Shown here: piece by piece, positions 1 to 11,975 of the stretch
Position numbering within the stretch: position 1 is the stretch's first letter
Layout of the letters: every line of letters begins with the position of its first letter
From: a virus
Strand: one strand, 5' to 3'
Length of the DNA: 20,124 nucleotides
IMG/VR virus record: IMGVR_UViG_3300045016_000006
Coordinates: 1 to 20,124 of that record
Notes under the pieces: model-generated
What the model saw: the letters and a program-made list of their open reading frames with translations, nothing else
Told to the model about the DNA's origin: nothing
Database searches by the model: none
Position numbers and translations under genes: made by a program

Positions 1-963
1 AGCTAACTCAAGTTGTAATTGAGTAAAGACATCCTGCTTAGCCTTAGCCTTCTGCATATTCTCAGCCATAGATCCTGGAGGAAGTCCTAAAAATGCAGCT
101 TGCTGAGCTGCCTGTTTATCAATCTTTTCAAAAAGAAGATCCTGTTCAAATTTAAACTTAGCCTCGGTTGATTTATTAACATCCCTAAGAACTGTTAATA
201 AATCAGTCTTATGTTTATCTGTCTGTATATCTGCAGCCTCAAGAGCATCAAGCACTGCAAAACCAGTCTTATCTATTTCAGTCATTACATCTTGAAAACC
301 AGCCTTTAACTCTGCTTCATTGGCCCCATACTTAGACATTAAATCATCAACGTTCTTAATGATAGTATCCTTAATAGGAGTTATAAATTTATCTATCTGC
401 GCCTCTTGTTCATCAGTATATGAATAATCTCCAGACACAAACTTCTTTAAGTTCTTTAAATAATCCGCTTCTACTCCAGCCATAGTATTGGCCTTGTCAA
501 CTTCTTCTTGAAATATTCTATCTTCTACGGCTTTAACTTGAGGAGAACCTTCACCGAATTTATTAATCGCATCCTGCACTCTTGGGTCTGGTTTCTTTTT
601 AATATCATATTTCGTATAAGTTGTTTGAGGCAATCCAGACAATTCAGACTCTTGTTTATAAACGTCCTGCTGATATTTAGTCTGTTGTGCAATACGAGGA
701 TCTCTTCCTGAACCTCTATATGGATTATTCTGAATATCAGCTGTAACCTCATCTAATTTAGATTGAGAAAATTTTATCTGGCTTTTTAATTTATCGGCAG
801 CTGCCTGGTCTTGGTATTCTGTAACCTCTTTCCCTTCATAAGCGTAACCAGACTCGTCAAGCTGAGATAGTATCATGCCTTGCATAAGACTATCATACTC
901 TCTACCTCTGGCCGACAGTTGACCAGTTTCAACAGTTGTTGTACTGGAAGAAGATGAACTCAT
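1..963 (-). CDS. Large helical virion protein, C-terminus beyond window (probable internal/ejection protein)
   Basis: The frame stays open from an ATG at 963 to base 1 (321 codons), so the gene is partial and its 3' end lies outside the window. The N-terminus is a Ser/Thr run (MSSSSSSTTTVETGQ) followed by charged, Gln- and Lys-rich sequence typical of alpha-helices and coiled coil. No signal peptide or membrane segment is visible. Its ATG overlaps the TGA of the upstream riboflavin-kinase-like gene (ATGA), with AGGGGTG just upstream as ribosome site. In short-tailed phages the large helical proteins encoded after adaptor, nozzle and fibre genes are often internal core or DNA-ejection proteins. 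That role is inferred from position and composition only, since no named domain was recognised. Existence of the gene is well supported by 963 bases without a stop. Confidence 0.8.
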   Translation of the reverse strand, partial: MSSSSSSTTTVETGQLSARGREYDSLMQGMILSQLDESGYAYEGKEVTEYQDQAAADKLKSQIKFSQSKLDEVTADIQNNPYRGSGRDPRIAQQTKYQQDVYKQESELSGLPQTTYTKYDIKKKPDPRVQDAINKFGEGSPQVKAVEDRIFQEEVDKANTMAGVEADYLKNLKKFVSGDYSYTDEQEAQIDKFITPIKDTIIKNVDDLMSKYGANEAELKAGFQDVMTEIDKTGFAVLDALEAADIQTDKHKTDLLTVLRDVNKSTEAKFKFEQDLLFEKIDKQAAQQAAFLGLPPGSMAENMQKAKAKQDVFTQLQLELA

Positions 964-1235
964 ATATCACCCCTATTAATTTGACTGCATAGATCCGTAA
1001 GTAAACTTGGAATCCTCTTAATATTTTTAACTATCAATTCCTCTCCATAAATATCTTTATCAAATCCTATAATATGAACCTCTATCTCTGAAGGATTGTC
1101 AACAAATATAAGGCATCCACCATATTCACAAGTCCCGGTATAAACACCCCTCTTAAGCTCACCTTTTATATTAGCAGTTGGAAATCCTCTTTTATTGGCA
1201 ACTCCTTTGCCTTTATATACATTTCCTATTATCAT
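960..1235 (-). CDS. Minimal riboflavin-kinase-like (flavokinase domain) protein
   Basis: A 91-residue protein matching the core of the riboflavin kinase (RFK/RibF C-terminal) barrel, which phosphorylates riboflavin to FMN. Visible landmarks in order are the N-terminal Gly-rich strand GNVYKGKG (4-11), GFPTAN (17-22, where PTAN binds the ATP-Mg), GVY (30-32), and EVHIIGF-x2-DIYGEEL (52-67) with the Glu of ExH at position 52 expected to be the catalytic base. Family domains are usually about 120-150 residues. This one lacks the loop that normally carries a G-x-R-P-T-F motif between GVY and the catalytic Glu, and has a short C-terminal helix. There is no adenylyltransferase domain. It overlaps the GNAT gene upstream and the helical protein downstream by ATGA junctions, so it is embedded in the tail operon. 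Activity is uncertain, and it may be a repurposed barrel. Confidence 0.75.
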   Translation of the reverse strand: MIIGNVYKGKGVANKRGFPTANIKGELKRGVYTGTCEYGGCLIFVDNPSEIEVHIIGFDKDIYGEELIVKNIKRIPSLLTDLCSQINRGDI

Positions 1236-1696
1236 ATTAAAATATAATAATTACTGTGGAAAGGTTTAAATCCTTTATCTTTATAAATCTCCGTTATATC
1301 ATCTTCACTAACATGAACGTGCCTACCTACCACCATAGCCTTACAATCATTTGCCTTGCCCCACTTATAAAGCTCAGCTAAAAGTTTATTATATATTCCC
1401 CTGCCACGATACGCCTCATCTATTCTTACATATCTTTGTTCAACAATTGGAGTAGTAGAAAATATTATCTTTGTTTTAGCGCCCAACAATATCCCTATCA
1501 CTTTATCTTCATCATAGCAAGCAAAGGTAACATGGTCTTTATTTTCTATAGATCTAACAAACTCAAAGCTTATCATAGCTGGGTCAAAAGTTATACCTAT
1601 CTCAGCGTACTTTGGCTCCAATATAGAATCCTTTACGAATTCAGGAAATGTAGTATTCGTAAAAAAGCTATGATCCTTTATTTGCTTTATCTGCAT
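1232..1696 (-). CDS. GNAT-family N-acetyltransferase (possibly T7 gp13-like role)
   Basis: A 154-residue protein from the ATG at 1696. The GNAT acetyl-CoA binding motif A is clear: strand YVRIDEAYRGRGIYNKLLAE with R97-G98-R99-G100 (Q/R-x-x-G-x-G/A type), followed by the helix and a later strand ending in YKDKGFKPF (138-146), a usual motif-B ending. The frame extends to a TTG at 1738, but that start would overlap the previous gene by 71 bases and has no good ribosome site. The ATG leaves 29 bases of overlap and is preferred, although its own ribosome site is weak (AAAGAA). GNAT-like proteins occur in the tail/internal-protein cluster of T7-like phages (gp13 family), so a virion-assembly role is possible. 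Modification of host proteins is the alternative. The substrate cannot be read from sequence. Confidence 0.8.
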   Translation of the reverse strand: MQIKQIKDHSFFTNTTFPEFVKDSILEPKYAEIGITFDPAMISFEFVRSIENKDHVTFACYDEDKVIGILLGAKTKIIFSTTPIVEQRYVRIDEAYRGRGIYNKLLAELYKWGKANDCKAMVVGRHVHVSEDDITEIYKDKGFKPFHSNYYILI

Positions 1697-1973
1697 ATTC
1701 TTTAGCAAGCTGACATATTTTAAACCATCTATTATCAAACTTTACCATGCAACTTGACACGGGGATGCAAAGCAATTCATTGTTTTCTTTTAAATTAAAT
1801 TCCCAAAACGGAGCATAATGAGCAGTTATAAACTTACCCTGTTCAAATATTTTATCAATTATTCTATGTTGAACAATTTCAATGATAAATGGTTTTGATC
1901 CTAAAAGAGTTATCTCAACCCCATAAGAATCTGGCATTCCTTCTATGTCTTTAGGAATAAATAGCTGTATCAT
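1668..1973 (-). CDS. Small protein of unknown function in tail operon
   Basis: A 101-residue protein that I do not recognise. Its start codon overlaps the collar-fibre stop in a TAATG junction, with GAGGG about eight bases upstream, and its 3' end overlaps the GNAT gene by 29 bases. The sequence alternates hydrophobic and polar residues (MIQLFIPKDIEG; PFIIEIVQH; AHYAPFWEFNL), suggesting a small alpha/beta fold, and it contains two Cys (LLCIPVSSCM). There is no signal peptide or membrane segment. Its place between fibre and GNAT genes suggests a late protein, possibly an assembly factor for the fibre, but nothing in the sequence shows this. Confidence 0.7.
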   Translation of the reverse strand: MIQLFIPKDIEGMPDSYGVEITLLGSKPFIIEIVQHRIIDKIFEQGKFITAHYAPFWEFNLKENNELLCIPVSSCMVKFDNRWFKICQLAKEYADKANKGS

Positions 1974-3100
1974 TATAAAACCCTCATTATAAATCTCACC
2001 CTTATAGACCTAGGCTGTACATCCTGCGCCGTAGAACCGCTATTAACGTTTGTAATAGTATGTGTATGAGATACTGTATGAGTATGCGCACCCTGAGAAT
2101 CGGTGGTACTTGTATTTGATCCTGTTGATGTTGGCCCATCACTCGCTGTTGTTCCGGTTCCGTCTTTAGTATAAAAAGTATATGGACCAGTTCCATCTGG
2201 TTTTGCATCAAGACCTCTTTGTCCTCCACCATCTCCAGCCTCTCCATCGGTTATTTGATGAGCAGTACCATCACTATCATAAGCATAAAAATGTACTGCT
2301 GTTCCTGCGTCACATTGCATTGTTTTAAATTGCAATGATCCAGCTCCGTGAGTGTGTTGAGCAATAGAATGAATATGACCAGCTACAACATGATCATGAG
2401 ATCCACCTGAAGATGTTGTTGGTGCATTAGTAGATAAAGTATTTGCGTGACTATGTTGTAAATCAACCTGATGAGAAGCGTTTCCTATTGGAGCAGCATT
2501 CCAAGCCGCAGTATCTATGTCTCCACCACCCTCCGTTCCAAAACCAACCAAATATCTATTAGATAAATCTGGTAGCGTTAATCCATCAAGAGGAGATGCA
2601 GCGTAAGCTAAAACAGATCCATCACAATATCTCCAATAATCTGTATCAAATGTTACCGCAGCATTAAAATCATAGAATGGTATTATCGATCCTACTGGAA
2701 CAGAGGCACCAATTATAGAAACAAGATCCGATGTTAATGCAACTGTTCCAGAAGCATCTGGAAGTTGATGCGTTCTAACATCTGTTAGTAAGCTGGTAGA
2801 TAAAGTAGAACTATTACCATCACTATTAATTATCCAAGTGTCAGAAGTTGTCCCGGTTATAGGAGTAGCACCAGTTATAACGTTGGTAATATATTGATAA
2901 AGATAAGTTCCTATTGTTTGATTACCATCATTATTAAATTCATAATTGCTAGGAAAAAGGTCTTTAGCAAGTTGTGTAAGGTTTAAATTTAAAGTGGCAA
3001 ATGCTTGTTCGGTTGTCTGTCTCCAAGCATCTAAATTTTCTTCAAATAAAACTCTGCCATCTTTATATTTTTTAGGCAAAGAAACATCTATAAGAGACAT
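1973..3100 (-). CDS. Tail fibre protein with phage tail-collar domain and HxH-rich tip
   Basis: A 375-residue receptor-binding type protein. The N-terminal ~65 residues contain QLAKD (43-47) and FNNDGN (55-60), a motif shared with the next gene upstream, and probably anchor it to the tail. A tail-collar domain follows at about 134-190: VPVGSIIPFYD, then W156-RYCDGS and LPDLSNRYLVGFG. The C-terminal part holds six His-x-His motifs (216-218, 235-237, 242-244, 249-251, 339-341, 345-347), Gly/Thr/Ser-rich linkers, and ends in QDVQPRSIRVRFIMRVL, close to the usual collar-domain ending. In the T4 long-fibre tip, HxH motifs from three chains bind iron in a needle, so a trimeric metal-bound tip is inferred. 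The ribosome site is weak (GGTGAT), so translation may be coupled to the gene just upstream. Confidence 0.88.
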   Translation of the reverse strand: MSLIDVSLPKKYKDGRVLFEENLDAWRQTTEQAFATLNLNLTQLAKDLFPSNYEFNNDGNQTIGTYLYQYITNVITGATPITGTTSDTWIINSDGNSSTLSTSLLTDVRTHQLPDASGTVALTSDLVSIIGASVPVGSIIPFYDFNAAVTFDTDYWRYCDGSVLAYAASPLDGLTLPDLSNRYLVGFGTEGGGDIDTAAWNAAPIGNASHQVDLQHSHANTLSTNAPTTSSGGSHDHVVAGHIHSIAQHTHGAGSLQFKTMQCDAGTAVHFYAYDSDGTAHQITDGEAGDGGGQRGLDAKPDGTGPYTFYTKDGTGTTASDGPTSTGSNTSTTDSQGAHTHTVSHTHTITNVNSGSTAQDVQPRSIRVRFIMRVL

Positions 3101-3104
3101 ACGA

Positions 3105-3860
3105 TCACCATACCTTTATGGCAGAGAAGAATGATACTGTATGTATCAGATCTAAATTGCCTGTGCTTGTTTGATAAACAAAAGCTTCATAGTAATCATT
3201 GACCGCAGCTTCATCTTGATAATGAAGATTTAGCGTAGTTTGTTGAGCAGCATTAGGAGAAAATTCCTTTGTTTCACAAACCTTAGATCCATTCTTATAA
3301 ATAGCCAACGTTCTATACCCAGTTGCGTTAGCATCAAACGTAGCTTGAGCATTAAATATATAAAGCCCAGTATTCCCTGTAGCTACTGTTATCCTTGAAG
3401 GGTTAACTCCATTGTCATGTAAATTTCCAACATCATATGATTCAGCTCCCATACTCATAGCTGTTAATGTAGCATGAGCAATGGTTTGATTTGCCGAAGG
3501 AATATAAGCTCTACACCTCGGTTGACCAGGAAATGTGGCCTTAGATGAAGCACCACCAGTAATGCTAGCGTTAAAAGTAGTTGCTCCACTAAATGACCAT
3601 TGACCAGTAACAGTTTCATTTTGAGCCAACTGAGCCATGAGATCAATGAGAGGAGTGGCTAAGAAAGGATTCCCATCATCATTAAATGTATAAGTTGCAT
3701 TATCCATTACATCTTTTGCAAGCTGAATAATATTAAGACGGAGTTTAACGTTACAGTAAGTTTCTGTATCACTTACTGCTAAGTTAAGTTGAGCTTGAGT
3801 AAGCACTGTTAAAGCTGCATACCCTTCGGTTACGTTCAGACTGGTTATTGTGATTGCCAT
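3105..3860 (-). CDS. Tail fibre/spike protein with C1q/TNF-like C-terminal domain
   Basis: A 251-residue protein in two parts. Residues 1-85 form an N-terminal module with QLAKD (46-50) and FNDDGN (59-64), matching the neighbouring collar-fibre protein. From about residue 110 the sequence follows the C1q/TNF-like jelly-roll pattern: a strand with CRAYIPSANQT, then the Gly-Leu-Tyr-Ile-Phe strand, alternating strands such as TLAIYKNGSKV, and the closing SFFSAIKVW. Such domains form trimers and occur at the tips of phage fibres, so host-surface binding is inferred. Its start overlaps the nozzle stop (TAATG), with AGAGGG upstream. I see no catalytic residues, which makes a depolymerase unlikely. 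Confidence 0.8.
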   Translation of the reverse strand: MAITITSLNVTEGYAALTVLTQAQLNLAVSDTETYCNVKLRLNIIQLAKDVMDNATYTFNDDGNPFLATPLIDLMAQLAQNETVTGQWSFSGATTFNASITGGASSKATFPGQPRCRAYIPSANQTIAHATLTAMSMGAESYDVGNLHDNGVNPSRITVATGNTGLYIFNAQATFDANATGYRTLAIYKNGSKVCETKEFSPNAAQQTTLNLHYQDEAAVNDYYEAFVYQTSTGNLDLIHTVSFFSAIKVW

Positions 3861-5422
3861 TATGCTACCCTCTTTCCTGTACCTTTGTTTATAGGTTCTA
3901 AATCTATTAATATACCCAATAATTCAAAATCAACTCCATCATCAGTATCATCATCGTGAGTAATTATCAATTGATACATCATTCCATTTCCACCTATTCT
4001 TACTTTATCAAGAACTACTGTTGGCATTCCTCCTAAAATGGATCTACCCATGACAAAATCTTCTCCCAAAGCATCTCCTAAAGAAGAATCAACCATATCA
4101 AATTCTTGTACGTTGGTAGTTATTCCATCAATTTTCATTGTTACAGTAAACTTGCCTGACGGCTGCGGAACAAAAATAGGAGTTATATATTTAAACTCAT
4201 ATTCTTCATCCGGCTGTCCAGACGGGCAGATAATACCAGATTTCAAATAAATTGAAACAGGTTTATTATAATCCCTAAAAACTTTATGATCAATATATCC
4301 GATCTCTCCAACAGAAGATCCTGCCGCCGACACAAGATTCTTATCAGTATAATTCATATAACGACATATTGCTGTCTGATTATATTCAGGCCAATGATAC
4401 CACTTCTTAGCTGTCAACGAAAAACCCCATGCACTAGTCGGATAATTAAATGAATCCGCAGGGTAAATACATATAATAGAGTTAAGCTGTCTGTCATAGA
4501 CAGACTGCATATATTTAGCTCTATTAAAATTAACTCCATCTCTCCACAATGGCTGAATGTCCAAAGATAAAAGACTAGTGTCAATCTCAGAAATTTTATC
4601 GGTACTTTCAAACTGATGCCATCCCCAATCAGATGGAAAGAAAATGTTCTTTTCAGTAGCTACTACAGCATTATGCGATATACAACCTATGCCATCAGAA
4701 ATCTTAGAATAAGTAAATACAGTATCTGTTTCAAACTGAATTGGAGTTACTTTATAAAGCGACAATCTTTTTGAAACATATAAATTACCAAAGAACGGCG
4801 GGAATATGGCCGTTATTCCATCAGGATCTCCATCATTTGGGTCAAGATCTAAAGCAAATGCGTCACCTGTAGTAAAATCTGTGGGGTCTCCAGTCTTGCT
4901 GAATAATATCCTGCCAGGAATACTTGGATCTGGAACAATCAATCTATTCAACCAAACCCTTCCAAACGACGCAAGTGGAGCGGTTGGAGATAAATTTTGA
5001 ATAAATCCCGATTGTGTCCAATATTTTGGTATAGTATTATTATCCTGAAAGAAAATAATAACTACACCGTAGTATGGTACAAAAGTTACAGCCTCATCGG
5101 TGGGTAAAACAAAACCATTGTTTAAGTTGTCAATGTTCTGCGTAAGAGGATTAATAGCTTGCAACTTCTGTCCATCCCACGTTATCAAACGCTGCGTCCC
5201 TAAACGCCAGTAATCATACATACCTATCATTCTTCTATGAACCGTATTTAAATCATCAAATAAATATGTAAGCCCCGGACGCTTTTTCTTGGTAGTGTAA
5301 GTAGTATAAACTATATTTCCAGAATAAGATACATCTTCTGGCTTTATAAGAATAGGATTCTTCGTTGAATCCTGACCACCGTCATAAGGATATATCTTAT
5401 GCTGTAAATATGATTCGCCCAT
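3860..5422 (-). CDS. Tail nozzle protein (T7 gp12 / P22 gp10-like, beta-propeller type)
   Basis: A 520-residue, strongly beta-rich protein without signal peptide or membrane helix. Its N-terminus has the signature of phage tail nozzle/hub proteins, GGQDSTKNPILI followed about 30 residues later by KKKRPGLTYL, where the usual form is G-G-x-x-x-x-x-x-P ... RKRPG. The middle contains repeated aromatic strands (MYDYWRLG, RLITWDGQKL, WGWHQFES, WGFSLTAKKWYHWPEY) consistent with propeller blades. It follows the adaptor gene by two bases and has no recognisable Shine-Dalgarno sequence, so re-initiation coupled to the adaptor is likely. In T7 and P22 the equivalent protein extends the adaptor ring and closes the DNA channel. 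The family call rests on the N-terminal pattern, length and position. Confidence 0.82.
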   Translation of the reverse strand: MGESYLQHKIYPYDGGQDSTKNPILIKPEDVSYSGNIVYTTYTTKKKRPGLTYLFDDLNTVHRRMIGMYDYWRLGTQRLITWDGQKLQAINPLTQNIDNLNNGFVLPTDEAVTFVPYYGVVIIFFQDNNTIPKYWTQSGFIQNLSPTAPLASFGRVWLNRLIVPDPSIPGRILFSKTGDPTDFTTGDAFALDLDPNDGDPDGITAIFPPFFGNLYVSKRLSLYKVTPIQFETDTVFTYSKISDGIGCISHNAVVATEKNIFFPSDWGWHQFESTDKISEIDTSLLSLDIQPLWRDGVNFNRAKYMQSVYDRQLNSIICIYPADSFNYPTSAWGFSLTAKKWYHWPEYNQTAICRYMNYTDKNLVSAAGSSVGEIGYIDHKVFRDYNKPVSIYLKSGIICPSGQPDEEYEFKYITPIFVPQPSGKFTVTMKIDGITTNVQEFDMVDSSLGDALGEDFVMGRSILGGMPTVVLDKVRIGGNGMMYQLIITHDDDTDDGVDFELLGILIDLEPINKGTGKRVA

Positions 5423-6919: not shown

Positions 6920-7486
6920 CTATCGAATTGTTTGAATCATCAATCTTAATCGCTCTTCTCCATTCTTTCTTCCATTAATTTTCATTCTTCTTCTCCATTC
7001 CCTTTTTCTTTTCACAACACAATCTACGCACCAACTATCGTAAAACCTTCTTCTAATTTCAGACTTTGGATTATTAAGTCTAAAACAAAACTTGGACAAT
7101 GGTTTAACTTTTCCACATAGACTGCATGGTTTTTTATTCTTCCATTCAACAGCATGTTCGATACGATGTTTCCCATTAGTCATTACCTTTAAGTTTTCAA
7201 TTCTATTATCTGTCTTGTTACCGTTTATATGATGTATATGTTCCGTTATCAATAACTTCCTACCCAAATGTTGTTCCATCACATATCTATGTTCCTTAAC
7301 AGACTTACCTTGTATCCGTATCTTTTTATATCCATATCCATCAACATAACCAGTCCCACGCTTTCTACTCTTTTCTGTTTCTGGAACTCCATTTCGTTTC
7401 CATACTTGATAATGTTTACTACAAAAACCTTTTGCTAAATGATCTCTTTCGCATCCATTTACAGAACATTTTCTAATTTCATTCAT
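6920..7486 (-). CDS. Free-standing HNH endonuclease (homing type) with two zinc motifs
   Basis: A 188-residue protein with an HNH_3-type core: EHRYVMEQHLGRKL (65-78), then HIHHINGNKTDNRIENL (83-99), giving the catalytic His pair H85-H86, N88, and N94 and N98. It is flanked by two probable zinc sites, C7-x4-C12-x9-C22-x2-H25 at the N-terminus and C121-x2-C124 with C153-x2-C156 at the C-terminus. A very basic tail (KRKREWRRRMK) fits DNA binding. The gene is visibly AT-richer than its neighbours, sits between an accessory protein and the membrane-protein pair, and carries its own promoter and a hairpin over its ribosome site (AGGAGG at 7491-7496). These features fit a mobile homing endonuclease inserted between genes rather than a structural component. 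Confidence 0.9.
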   Translation of the reverse strand: MNEIRKCSVNGCERDHLAKGFCSKHYQVWKRNGVPETEKSRKRGTGYVDGYGYKKIRIQGKSVKEHRYVMEQHLGRKLLITEHIHHINGNKTDNRIENLKVMTNGKHRIEHAVEWKNKKPCSLCGKVKPLSKFCFRLNNPKSEIRRRFYDSWCVDCVVKRKREWRRRMKINGRKNGEERLRLMIQTIR

Positions 7487-7547: not shown

Positions 7548-10500
7548 TCAGTTGCTCGATCTGGAAACTTCATACCAATCTGAATCTCCAGAATCCCACG
7601 CAAGCGTAAGGGTGTCTCCCTTACCAAGCGTCATGCTAACGCCACCAGAAAGTTGAATGTTAGTATTGTCTGCGAAGGTAACCGTGTTAGTATCATTGGT
7701 TCCTTGAATAATAAGGAACTGACCATCATCCTGACCATTCGCAACTGAAGGACTCGTATCCAAGACAACCGCTCCACCACTTCCAACAACACGCATAATT
7801 GCTTTAGTAGGAGTCATTGTTGCGTCATTAGCTAACGATGTATCACCAGAAGGATTGAATGCCTGTTGGCCTCCATTGTAAATATCTCCGGCTTGTCCAT
7901 AGAACGAGTAGTTTATTACATCGCTACCTGTTGCGTTACCCAAAACGCCGACATTCCATCCACCAGAATGGGCTGTTATGGCTTGACCTTCAACACCTAT
8001 TGAAGAATCAGTATCAGTAGAAAGTCCGGGCCTTGCAAAACCAGCCACTCCTATTGCAGATGTATCTGCGTCTCCCTTTGCGCTACCAACTATGGCCATG
8101 GTATCTTTATCTGAGTTCGCAACAGCTTCAACAACCAAGCCAATCTCATTGCCTGTAAGTGTTTGAGTTGCTTCACCTTCGGATATGCCTACAAAGAAAC
8201 TACCCCAATCTGCCGCAACAAAAGTAGAACCAATGACAACTTCATCCTCGTTATAAATTTGTCCTTCTGTCCCGTAGAACGAATAATTGGTAGCTCCGCC
8301 AGAAGCATCTCCCCAAACTGCTGCGTTCCTTCCACCTACATGCGTGGCAGTTGACAAACCCTTAAGTCCTATAGCGTCCGCATTGTCTGCGGTGTTATCT
8401 ACAAGAGCAACGCCTCTTACTCCAACGCCATCTTTGCCTGCTAGGGTCTGACCGATACCATGAATACCAACACCTTCTATTACCCCTCCAGCCTTCGCTT
8501 CTCCAACAACACCGATATTATCTACAGAGGTCTGCGCAGTATTAGCGGTTGAGAAGAAAGCCTCTGCCGCAGCAAAGTCTGCAAAGTTAGCCGCAGAACC
8601 TGCGGCAACTTTCTCTAGATTGAATAAATTTCCAAGAAGCCCATAGAACGAATAATCTTCATCTCCACCAGAAGCAGTAGAAAAAACTCCTATATTATCT
8701 CCAGCAGAATGTGACGACGTGGCATTAGCGACAACTCCGTAAGCGGTACCGCTATCCGACGCACCTGTTTGAACCGTTGCCGTACCAGCTATACCAACTG
8801 CAAATTTATTGTCTGTGACTCTTGCAAACCCACGCACTCCGTAAGCATTGTATGTTCCATCGGCTTCTGCTTCAGCTACAATGGCAATATTGGAAGCGGT
8901 ATCTGTAACTCCCGTGTTGTCCATGCTAAAAATAGAAAACGCTTCTGGGAAATCAACAAGGCTGGCATCGACTCCTTCTATAAAACCACCTTCCGCAGTC
9001 ATAAAGCCAATTTTTTCAGAAGCCTCAAAATCAAATTCCCACTTATCTCCTACGGTATAAACAGTCCCCATTGGATTGTCTTGATAATTTGTAACGTAAA
9101 CTATAACCCCATTGTTTAAATTATAAGGGCCAACAACAGATGCGGCTATTAAGTCAATGCCTGAATCTTCCCATGTAGCACCATTATCATCAGACCATCT
9201 AAATGTAGGATTTGGAGAACCAGCATCTATTTCAATTACATACTGAGTAGGAGCCACTCCAGTATAAACGTTTTCAACAATAGAAATAGTAGATTCAACG
9301 CTGTCTGTTACTGAAACATCTATTCCGGTAACACCAAACCCAACAATAGGGCCATTATAAAATTCTAATAAATCAGATTCATAAAGAAGCTTGAAAGTAT
9401 TCCCGATTTTTATCGCCTCAGCCCCAGCTGAATCTGGAGTATGCCCCTGTATTTTAAGGTCATCTATAAAGGCTTCGAGCATGTCTGCCTTTATATAATC
9501 ATCGCTCATCGCAAATGAAGGATTTGAACCATGTGTAAACGACCATTCACTTTCGCCTCCAACATCAGGGTCTAAAAACATATCCCATGTCTGATCTGAG
9601 TTGAACGTTACAGCTCCATTAGTAGATGTCCCATCTGGTATCCTAATCTGGTCACCAAACCTAGTTTTTCCTTCATTAACAATACCAAACGCATTAGTAA
9701 TGGTGGCTCCCGTGCTTGCAATCGGGTCGTCTTTAATATAAACTGTCGAAGCTTCTGTGATAGTCCCGCCACCACCAGCGATCCTATAAGTAGGAGCATC
9801 AATATACATATTGTGCTGGGCTGCAATATTACCTTCGAGCCACTCTTTAGTCCCTGAATCAAACCAGAATTCTGGACTTATCAACGTGGCCGCTATCCCG
9901 TCCATCGTCCCACCATACAAGTATAGAACTTGTGGGGCCGAGCTTCCAGTGGTGTTATCCTGTATAACTCTAATGCCTCCGTGGTTGATGATGCCAAACC
10001 TGTTATCATAAACTGGAGAACCAGCAACAACACTCAAAGTATCAACAACTCTAAACAAATATCCCTCATCCCAATCCGTGGTCGGGCCAATTATAAAAGC
10101 ATCTTTACCGGCACCACTTGTGGCTGCGTTATAAATATAAGTACCATCAGAATCATCTGGATATATTGAAGTGTGCCATGAATAACTACCAAGTGAATTA
10201 AGGTATATGTCAACTGAACCGTTATTAGCTACACCGAACGGAGTTCCTACTCCAAGATTTATATATCCTCCGTTATTGGCTCCCGCTGGTCCTACACCAT
10301 AACTAGCATTAATCATAATATCGTTACCAGCAGAAGAACCAGCCGCATCCGGTGCATCTATCTCTCCACCGCCATCTACACCATTGGGAGAGAAATGAAA
10401 GAAGTTGGTTCCATCTACCCGCATATCCACCTTACCCTCATCACCAGCACCGCTTTCATCACCGGCATTTAATATTATATCTCCGCCGTCAGTATCACCA

Positions 10501-11339
10501 GTACCACCTGAAGCGGCGTTTAATTCAACACTACCACCAGCTGTAGCTGGAGGAGCATCAGCAGACCCAAGGATTAAACCGTTGGAACCGTCATATCCGA
10601 TGAAACCAAAACTTGTTCCATTTCTTTCAAACTCTAACGAACCCCATTCTGCCGTCCCAGTATAGACTCCAACATCGAATATGATAGAACCACCGTCATT
10701 GTTACCGGCTCCTTTTGCATCTCCAGCAGAGAAGCTTATATTACCACCTACTCCTCCGGTAGTATCAGTTCCAGCATCTCCAGCCTCCAAGAAATATCCA
10801 TAACCATCTTCAACAACAGCACCTTTATCCGTAACTGAATCCAAAACACCAGATGCACTTCCCGTTCTATCAAGATATTCAACGCCGCCGTTCCAAAACC
10901 TAGTTGTGTCATCATCGGCAGTTTGTTCAACTGTGACTAAGGTATCTTTATCTGCGTCGTAGATTAGAGCGGTTTCCTTAATACAAGTACCACTAAAATC
11001 GGTATAACCAGATGCGCAAGAAGTACAAGTTGCTCCAGCATACCCGACATCGCAGTTGCAGTATGCCGCATTCCACGCAGCATTAAATGCTGTTAATAAA
11101 CAGTTCACGCCGGAGCCGTGAGTCAACGCATCACAATACAAATCCCACGATGCTTTAGATGAAGCAGTAGGGTCTCCGGCATCAGTGTCTGGAGCGCAGT
11201 TCAAGCCCAACATTACGTTATTTCCGGCACCGCAGTTCTGACCGGCATAAGATGTATAACATTGGTAAGGAGTGGACCAGGCTGTTGTCGCCATTGCCAT
11301 TATAATGGCAACCAAGAACGAAGTTAGTATCTTTTTCAT
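7548..11339 (-). CDS. Giant exported repeat protein (1263 aa) with signal peptide and EGF-like Cys cluster
   Basis: The start at 11339 is firm (AGGAG six bases upstream). Residues 1-22 are a Sec signal peptide (MKKILTSFLVAIIMAMATTAWS, with cleavage possible after A20 or S22). Ten Cys follow between 27 and 119, the last five spaced C94-x-C96-x8-C105-x2-C108-x10-C119 like a laminin-type EGF module. Residues about 190-315 are Gly/Asp-rich short strands (GGSIIFDVG, GGDIILNAGDESGAGDEG), probably a beta-helix or beta-roll. The last third carries three ~124-residue repeats, and the C-terminus (TNTVTFADNTNIQL, then MTLGKGDTLTLAWDSGDSDWYEVS) is a beta closing domain. No membrane anchor or protease motif is seen. 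It is likely a secreted fibrous surface or virion-surface protein. A signal peptide is unusual for a virion component, so release to the periplasm or cell surface is possible. The function is unknown. Confidence 0.85.
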   Translation of the reverse strand: MKKILTSFLVAIIMAMATTAWSTPYQCYTSYAGQNCGAGNNVMLGLNCAPDTDAGDPTASSKASWDLYCDALTHGSGVNCLLTAFNAAWNAAYCNCDVGYAGATCTSCASGYTDFSGTCIKETALIYDADKDTLVTVEQTADDDTTRFWNGGVEYLDRTGSASGVLDSVTDKGAVVEDGYGYFLEAGDAGTDTTGGVGGNISFSAGDAKGAGNNDGGSIIFDVGVYTGTAEWGSLEFERNGTSFGFIGYDGSNGLILGSADAPPATAGGSVELNAASGGTGDTDGGDIILNAGDESGAGDEGKVDMRVDGTNFFHFSPNGVDGGGEIDAPDAAGSSAGNDIMINASYGVGPAGANNGGYINLGVGTPFGVANNGSVDIYLNSLGSYSWHTSIYPDDSDGTYIYNAATSGAGKDAFIIGPTTDWDEGYLFRVVDTLSVVAGSPVYDNRFGIINHGGIRVIQDNTTGSSAPQVLYLYGGTMDGIAATLISPEFWFDSGTKEWLEGNIAAQHNMYIDAPTYRIAGGGGTITEASTVYIKDDPIASTGATITNAFGIVNEGKTRFGDQIRIPDGTSTNGAVTFNSDQTWDMFLDPDVGGESEWSFTHGSNPSFAMSDDYIKADMLEAFIDDLKIQGHTPDSAGAEAIKIGNTFKLLYESDLLEFYNGPIVGFGVTGIDVSVTDSVESTISIVENVYTGVAPTQYVIEIDAGSPNPTFRWSDDNGATWEDSGIDLIAASVVGPYNLNNGVIVYVTNYQDNPMGTVYTVGDKWEFDFEASEKIGFMTAEGGFIEGVDASLVDFPEAFSIFSMDNTGVTDTASNIAIVAEAEADGTYNAYGVRGFARVTDNKFAVGIAGTATVQTGASDSGTAYGVVANATSSHSAGDNIGVFSTASGGDEDYSFYGLLGNLFNLEKVAAGSAANFADFAAAEAFFSTANTAQTSVDNIGVVGEAKAGGVIEGVGIHGIGQTLAGKDGVGVRGVALVDNTADNADAIGLKGLSTATHVGGRNAAVWGDASGGATNYSFYGTEGQIYNEDEVVIGSTFVAADWGSFFVGISEGEATQTLTGNEIGLVVEAVANSDKDTMAIVGSAKGDADTSAIGVAGFARPGLSTDTDSSIGVEGQAITAHSGGWNVGVLGNATGSDVINYSFYGQAGDIYNGGQQAFNPSGDTSLANDATMTPTKAIMRVVGSGGAVVLDTSPSVANGQDDGQFLIIQGTNDTNTVTFADNTNIQLSGGVSMTLGKGDTLTLAWDSGDSDWYEVSRSSN
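7875..9010 (-). repeat. Three tandem ~124-residue repeats inside the 1263-aa protein
   Basis: Each repeat is built of short G-V/I-x-G-x-A strands and ends in a near-identical tag: DYSFYGLLGNLFN (about 8619-8660), NYSFYGTEGQIYN (about 8250-8290) and NYSFYGQAGDIYN (about 7875-7915). The DNA coding for the tag is itself conserved (CCATAGAACGA-like on the plus strand at 8641, 8272 and 7897), spaced 369 and 375 bases. Between tags, AxxADFA/AADW segments and IGV(V/L)xEA also align. The pattern suggests duplication of a trimerising beta-structured unit. Confidence 0.75.
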
Positions 11340-11351
11340 TTTATTCTCCTA

Positions 11352-11975
11352 TTAGCCCTTGCAACACGCATACTTCTTGCTCATTGCGCACCCTGACAAA
11401 TAAGCCTTGTCAGTGTTGAGATTCCAATACGCTCCATAATATCCAACTGCCACCGAGGTCCACCCGTCGCAATCGTTAGAGAATGAAGTGTACCCTGGGG
11501 CGCCATCAAGAACCCATACTTCATCAGTGGCTCCACCAAATGTTTCTCCATCAGCCATTAAAAAAGCTATATCAAGATCGGTGCATGGACGGGCATCTGC
11601 ATCTGCAGTGTCTGTGGCACACTGAGTTGTTATTGCGGTATAAGATCCCATGGCATCGCCATCGTAGGTTGCTGTAGTAAGACCTACATAACTTACTTGG
11701 CCTACGGGAGTAATGCCTCCAGATGTTATTTGAATAACATTGCAAGCCGGGCTGGATGACATGTAATAAAGCTCAGTAACGCCCGCCAACTCTTTAGTAA
11801 AAATAACGCCCCTATCTGCTTGGCAAGTAGGATTAGAACTTTGCTCATAAAACCAACGAGGACCAGTATATTCAATGTTTGGCCCAGCGGATGGAGTTGA
11901 TTCATCAATGTTGGGACCACCCGCAGCTATTAACATTGGCAAAACAGCCAACAACAAATATTTAATTTTAAACAT
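11352..11975 (-). CDS. Cys-rich secreted protein, lectin-like C-terminus
   Basis: A 207-residue protein with an N-terminal signal peptide (MFKIKYLLLAVLPMLIAAGG) and no Cys at the cleavage region, so it is not an obvious lipoprotein. Short GPNI repeats follow (GPNIDESTPSAGPNIEYTGP). The mature part contains eight Cys, consistent with disulphides formed outside the cytoplasm. The C-terminal ~45 residues (C-D-G-W-T-S, then GYYGAYWNL, YLSGC, KKYACC) look like a small C-type-lectin-like or adhesin fold, but I cannot assign a named family. It is encoded between the beta-rich 143-residue protein and the giant exported protein, with GAGGT as ribosome site and 12 bases between it and the next gene. 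Co-export with, or binding to, the giant protein is a guess from gene order. Confidence 0.75.
   Translation of the reverse strand: MFKIKYLLLAVLPMLIAAGGPNIDESTPSAGPNIEYTGPRWFYEQSSNPTCQADRGVIFTKELAGVTELYYMSSSPACNVIQITSGGITPVGQVSYVGLTTATYDGDAMGSYTAITTQCATDTADADARPCTDLDIAFLMADGETFGGATDEVWVLDGAPGYTSFSNDCDGWTSVAVGYYGAYWNLNTDKAYLSGCAMSKKYACCKG

Follow-up and report, generated by a model that had tools for sequence, protein, structure and literature searches.

The window analysed here is a stretch of 20,124 nt from the virus record IMGVR_UViG_3300045016_000006. Close to its left end lies a 91-aa ORF, which starts with ATG, has an intact frame and encodes MIIGNVYKGKGVANKRGFPTANIKGELKRGVYTGTCEYGGCLIFVDNPSEIEVHIIGFDKDIYGEELIVKNIKRIPSLLTDLCSQINRGDI (Table 1). 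In a Pfam search, the Flavokinase family PF01687 covers residues 2-75 of the product at 45.5 bits (cut-off 19.6; E 1.1e-11). This is far above chance for the 91-aa protein, and PF01687 is the sole family over its cut-off, with none other near. The earlier note on this DNA had proposed a minimal riboflavin kinase (RFK)-like domain lacking the FAD synthetase half. The Pfam score, together with the barrel of the AF2 model described below, bears out the first part. As to the second, a profile search found FAD_syn (PF06574) neither in the window nor in G003, a sequence of the same virus (99.9% identity) that adds about 6 kb upstream of the window and ends short of the RFK gene. The equivalog models for bifunctional RibF (TIGR00083, PRK05627) fall far below cut-off (31.6 bits vs 184), and the Pfam family of archaeal CTP-dependent riboflavin kinases (RibK/RbkR) is not matched. 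PHROGs, structural families included, contain no family for the protein.

Table 1. Features of the RFK gene and its surroundings in the window
Feature	Position	Strand	Evidence
Minimal stand-alone riboflavin kinase (Flavokinase) domain, 91 aa	960..1235	-	PF01687; AF2 model; solved RFKs are best matches
GFPTAN, ATP/Mg motif, residues 17-22	1170..1187	-	sequence; alignments
GVY element, residues 30-32	1140..1148	-	sequence; G30 and Y32 invariant in 60 RFKs
Shortened Flap II, FVDNPSEI (canonical RFKs: NxGxxPTF plus loop)	1083..1106	-	alignment
EVH, residues 52-54; E52 at catalytic base position	1074..1082	-	alignment to CaFADS E268, human E78
DIYG element, residues 61-64	1044..1055	-	sequence; alignment
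ATGA overlap, GNAT stop / RFK start	1232..1235	-	sequence
ATGA overlap, RFK stop / next ATG	960..963	-	sequence
GNAT acetyltransferase, directly upstream	1232..1696	-	PF00583 31.4 bits; phrog_1249 acetyltransferase E 2.6e-10
Downstream gene, partial (window end), no recognisable family	1..963	-	Pfam, PHROG
Upstream tail/virion block, same operon: tail-fibre-like, virion structural, tail stabilisation-like	1973..5422	-	PHROG matches

The gene is joined to both neighbours by ATGA overlaps. Upstream is a GNAT acetyltransferase gene with a 168-aa ORF, for which the ATG at 1696 is the probable start within a longer ORF extending to 1738. Most other genes of the window have a recognisable Shine-Dalgarno sequence; the RFK ATG has none, and since it also overlaps the GNAT stop codon, RFK translation is probably coupled to that of the GNAT gene. 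The next gene, which starts in the other overlap, has its own AGGGG-type site. Neither Pfam nor PHROG matches it significantly (the best PHROG, a family of unknown function, has E 0.009). Thus, although the two overlaps and the GNAT neighbour stand as first described, calling the second neighbour a virion gene was a guess. The placing of the gene in a phage tail operon is supported: the gene at 1973-3100 matches a tail fibre, and those at 3105-3860 and 3860-5422 match virion structural proteins; the last of these genes has a distant homologue in MW202601 annotated 'phage stabilization protein'.

Several other features of this genome were recorded. Within the structural operon lies a free-standing HNH_3 endonuclease gene (6920-7486, minus strand; 41.6 bits) whose ribosome-binding site is strong. 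The adjacent genes at 7548-11339 and 11352-11975 (both minus strand) encode N-termini that, by eye, resemble signal peptides (MKKILTSFLVAIIMAMATTAWS and MFKIKYLLLAVLPMLIAAGG), and the 1263-aa product of the former ends in a C-terminal domain of the phage depolymerase type (27.6 bits). Past the right end of the window, in contig L119 of the same virus, the terminase large subunit gene (935-3310, minus strand) is interrupted at the Walker A region by a 295-aa intein (GNR|C...HSN|SGKSE; Intein_splicing 28.8 bits, below the cut-off of 35.8). The other strand of the intein DNA contains the whole of a 243-aa HNH_3 endonuclease ORF (2350-3081, plus strand).

All the flavokinase elements first noticed by eye, namely PTAN, GVY and ExH...DIYG, are present within the 91 residues. 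In RFKs, PTAN binds ATP/Mg and a Glu that follows it acts as the base in catalysis, as does E268 in CaFADS (PMC5428420); the human enzyme has 25-PTAN-28 with Glu78 (numbering of PMC10086132). GFPTAN is invariant in the alignment that includes the window RFK. The protein also keeps F18, which aligns with F206 of CaFADS, a residue that stacks on the flavin isoalloxazine ring (PMC5428420). None of the 95 cellular RFKs compared lacks the catalytic Glu, and the window RFK and the phage RFK L013 described below have it too.

Two parts of the protein are trimmed: Flap II and, ahead of the last helix, the L6 loop. The spacing from PTAN to Glu is 29 residues, vs 33-47 in 20 Patescibacteria RFKs and 39-49 in 75 RibFs, and that from the DIYG Tyr to the helix Gln is 21, vs 25-28 in all others. 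This is the shortest RFK core among the 99 sequences compared. The missing G-x-R-P-T-F is, judged from the alignment, the start of Flap II; the pattern used for it, NxGxxPTF, occurs in 65 of 75 RibFs and is absent from the window RFK. In CaFADS, residues 259-264 of Flap II stand immediately ahead of E268 and are disordered in several structures; together with L1c-FlapI, L6c and helix alpha1c, Flap II closes the flavin site (PMC5428420). With so short a core, flavin closure may be impaired in the window RFK.

The flap was indeed missing, as the earlier note had it, but the oddness that this implied was lessened by comparison with cellular enzymes. In the Patescibacteria genomes surveyed, a Flavokinase domain is present in 33 of 116, usually within an open frame of 116-172 aa, and FAD_syn came over cut-off in only two. 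The NxGxxPT/PTF flap is lacking in 18 of 20 sampled RFKs from this group, mostly stand-alone, and its loss is therefore not unusual. The best genome matches to the window RFK are two Patescibacteria genes (L014:1-1119 and L015:3047-4360), both encoding an EamA-type transporter fused to riboflavin kinase, an arrangement which suggests that riboflavin uptake is coupled to its phosphorylation.

We weighed a Patescibacteria origin for the phage gene but did not retain it. It is favoured by the profile scores (63 bits with a Patescibacteria profile, 48-53 with a RibF profile), but in a tree of 60 domains the window RFK groups with RibF (98/97) and L013 with Patescibacteria; the domains are short, and the RibF set was chosen by similarity to the GFPTANIK stretch of the window protein. 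The major capsid protein had no match in 287 Patescibacteria genomes, a search which had no positive control, so that its empty result proves nothing.

An AF2 model from the single sequence was useless (pLDDT 37). When built on 60 aligned sequences, the window RFK and 59 homologues from fetched loci, the model reached pLDDT 81 and pTM 0.71. It gives the RFK barrel, the outcome for which the earlier note had proposed structure prediction as a check, in a model biased towards that fold by an alignment of RFKs; this structural support therefore depends on the family assignment. Solved RFKs head both structural comparisons (Foldseek, VIA), with TM values by query length of at most 0.74. The first seven matches, all RFKs, have Z scores from 10.0 to 8.2 (3op1, 10.0; 5a88, 8.9; human 1q9s, 8.4), and the best unrelated fold has 5.5. 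RbkR (5trd) is a distant match at Z 5.0.

Scans of viral contigs gave no direct relative either of the window RFK or of its GNAT neighbour, true phage relatives of the RFK were absent from INPHARED at the tblastn level, and a fixed-spacing motif scan was unproductive. Two INPHARED matches (L002, L003) were rejected as complete bacterial RibF genes amid bacterial genes; others (H7-H9, H30-H39) were weak and came from unannotated or bacterial records, one annotated RibF. L011, L125, L147 and L155 were rejected as ORFs of bacterial-type RibF. Eight scans of viral contigs yielded two further kinds of phage RFK gene. RFK domains are thus present in at least two other tailed-phage lineages, unrelated to the window phage, and PTAN is kept in all the distant phage relatives found.

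The first kind, L013, is a 125-aa stand-alone RFK with EAH, and so with the Glu kept, and without the PTF flap. It lies among replication genes, on a contig with ORFs named by inspection as PolA, ribonucleotide reductase and PhoH. It and the window RFK probably entered phages separately.

The second kind belongs to a separate phage group, comprising L144 and L153, whose contigs are 95% identical, and L139. Their terminase (TerL) shares 50% identity with its counterpart in Flavobacterium phage 11b and relates the group to Bacteroidota phages. The RFK-like gene (Flavokinase 59 and 50.5 bits) sits two genes upstream of TerL and encodes about 165 aa in L144 and L153 and 227 aa in L139. PTAN is intact, Ser replaces the catalytic Glu and there is no PTF flap. 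Between L144 and L153, the gene shows 12 synonymous and 13 non-synonymous differences (pN/pS about 0.27), and so looks, from this comparison, to be under purifying selection. In L139 (13415-14098, minus strand), extra segments interrupt the RFK domain, one of them weakly ParB-like (PHROG 723, E 0.008). That this group has lost the Glu shows that phages can retain an RFK domain lacking the usual base. In the regions examined of the related cultured phages 11b and phi10:1 and of Polaribacter phage P12002L, no RFK-like frame was seen. Structural neighbours in BFVD that are annotated riboflavin kinase are giant-virus proteins. No paper describing a phage RFK was found in a search that lay mostly outside the subscription literature; the two matches just tabulate read or gene annotations. 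We regard the window gene as coding for an unusually reduced riboflavin kinase, one of a rare, scattered set of RFK domains in phages.

The explanation we prefer, at a probability of roughly 0.55, is that the gene encodes a minimal kinase making FMN in late infection. The product would be a stand-alone, ATP-dependent riboflavin 5'-kinase, converting riboflavin to FMN, made late from the tail operon through translation coupled to the GNAT gene, and the FMN supplied would presumably benefit the phage. What the analysis shows of this is the homology, the intact frame, the catalytic and ATP-binding residues, the predicted barrel, the gene overlaps and the lack of an FAD-synthetase half. The kinase would have to be active despite its shortened Flap II and trimmed L6 loop, and its late timing and the use of its FMN are likewise conjectural. 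Of the two alternatives in the earlier note, an auxiliary gene making FMN or a reused barrel, the retained Glu and PTAN favour the kinase for this protein. The cellular precedent of small RFKs without a PTF flap, L013 and the annotated giant-virus RFKs also speak for a kinase. Against it, no flavoenzyme was recognised in the available part of the genome. A link to flavin-dependent dTMP synthesis was looked for, but ThyX was not found in the available sequence.

Confidence is kept near half mainly because a phage lineage without the Glu retains the domain. The main rival is a protein that descends from a kinase but now binds flavin or a nucleotide and has no kinase activity, for example as a sensor, a regulator or a partner of another phage protein. 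The trimming of Flap II and the L6 loop fits such a role, as do the protein encoded near the terminase in L144, L153 and L139, with Ser for Glu and PTAN kept, the low pN/pS of its gene and the ParB-like segment within the domain of L139. However, the window RFK keeps Glu, PTAN and Phe, it shows no alternative conserved site, and the Glu-less lineage is no close relative; we consider this role possible but doubtful. A wider version is rather unlikely in our judgement: that tailed phages repeatedly and independently took the RFK barrel and trimmed its flap, giving a small flavin- or nucleotide-binding module beside virion and packaging genes in which kinase activity is dispensable, with the window protein as the most reduced form.

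The gene could also be a recently captured fragment of a host gene, functionless and heading for loss, as the want of a close relative in the phage and viral collections searched and the shortest core seen might suggest. This is improbable, as the reading frame is unbroken and meets each neighbour in an exact ATGA overlap, no key residue is missing, and the G+C content (0.33; third position 0.21) resembles that of the neighbouring tail genes. More improbable still is a virion or virion-assembly component reusing the barrel: the gene does lie within the tail/virion block, overlapped at both ends, but the GNAT next to it is an enzyme of a non-structural kind, none of the structural families in PHROG matches, the catalytic residues would need no retention, and an RFK-like gene is missing from the region examined of MW202601, a distant relative of the window phage, so that this is not a conserved structural gene.

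Were the window protein active, it would rank as the smallest riboflavin kinase in this analysis and help to establish how small an FMN-making barrel can be. Its activity would also mean that the supply of flavin cofactor is a step over which some phages take control, one not found described for phages in the literature searched. If inactive, it would illustrate the conversion of a metabolic enzyme into a phage part.

Among known systems, the RFK module of RibF (CaFADS, 5a88; Thermotoga maritima, 1mrz; Streptococcus pneumoniae, 3op1) shares with the window RFK the barrel, GFPTAN, GVY, the catalytic Glu, E-x-H...D-x-Y-G and the C-terminal helix; the window RFK differs in lacking the FMN adenylyltransferase half and NxGxxPTF, and in having about five residues fewer before the last helix. 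The small Patescibacteria RFKs (116-172 aa), like the phage protein, usually have neither an FAD synthetase half nor the NxGxxPT flap, but the window RFK is shorter still. Eukaryotic monofunctional RFKs (human, 1q9s; Schizosaccharomyces pombe, 1n06) are also stand-alone, with the same fold and active-site motif, but are about 150 aa long and have full flaps. The giant-virus RFKs (Fadolivirus A0A7D3R2S5, 121 aa, TM 0.74 by query length; Indivirus A0A1V0SD03) are likewise virus-encoded and of the RFK fold, but their bearers are large viruses of eukaryotes, not tailed phages. The phage RFK-like proteins L013, L144/L153 and L139 likewise come from tailed phages, have PTAN and lack the PTF flap; they differ from the window RFK in setting, the first lying among replication genes and the others two genes before TerL.
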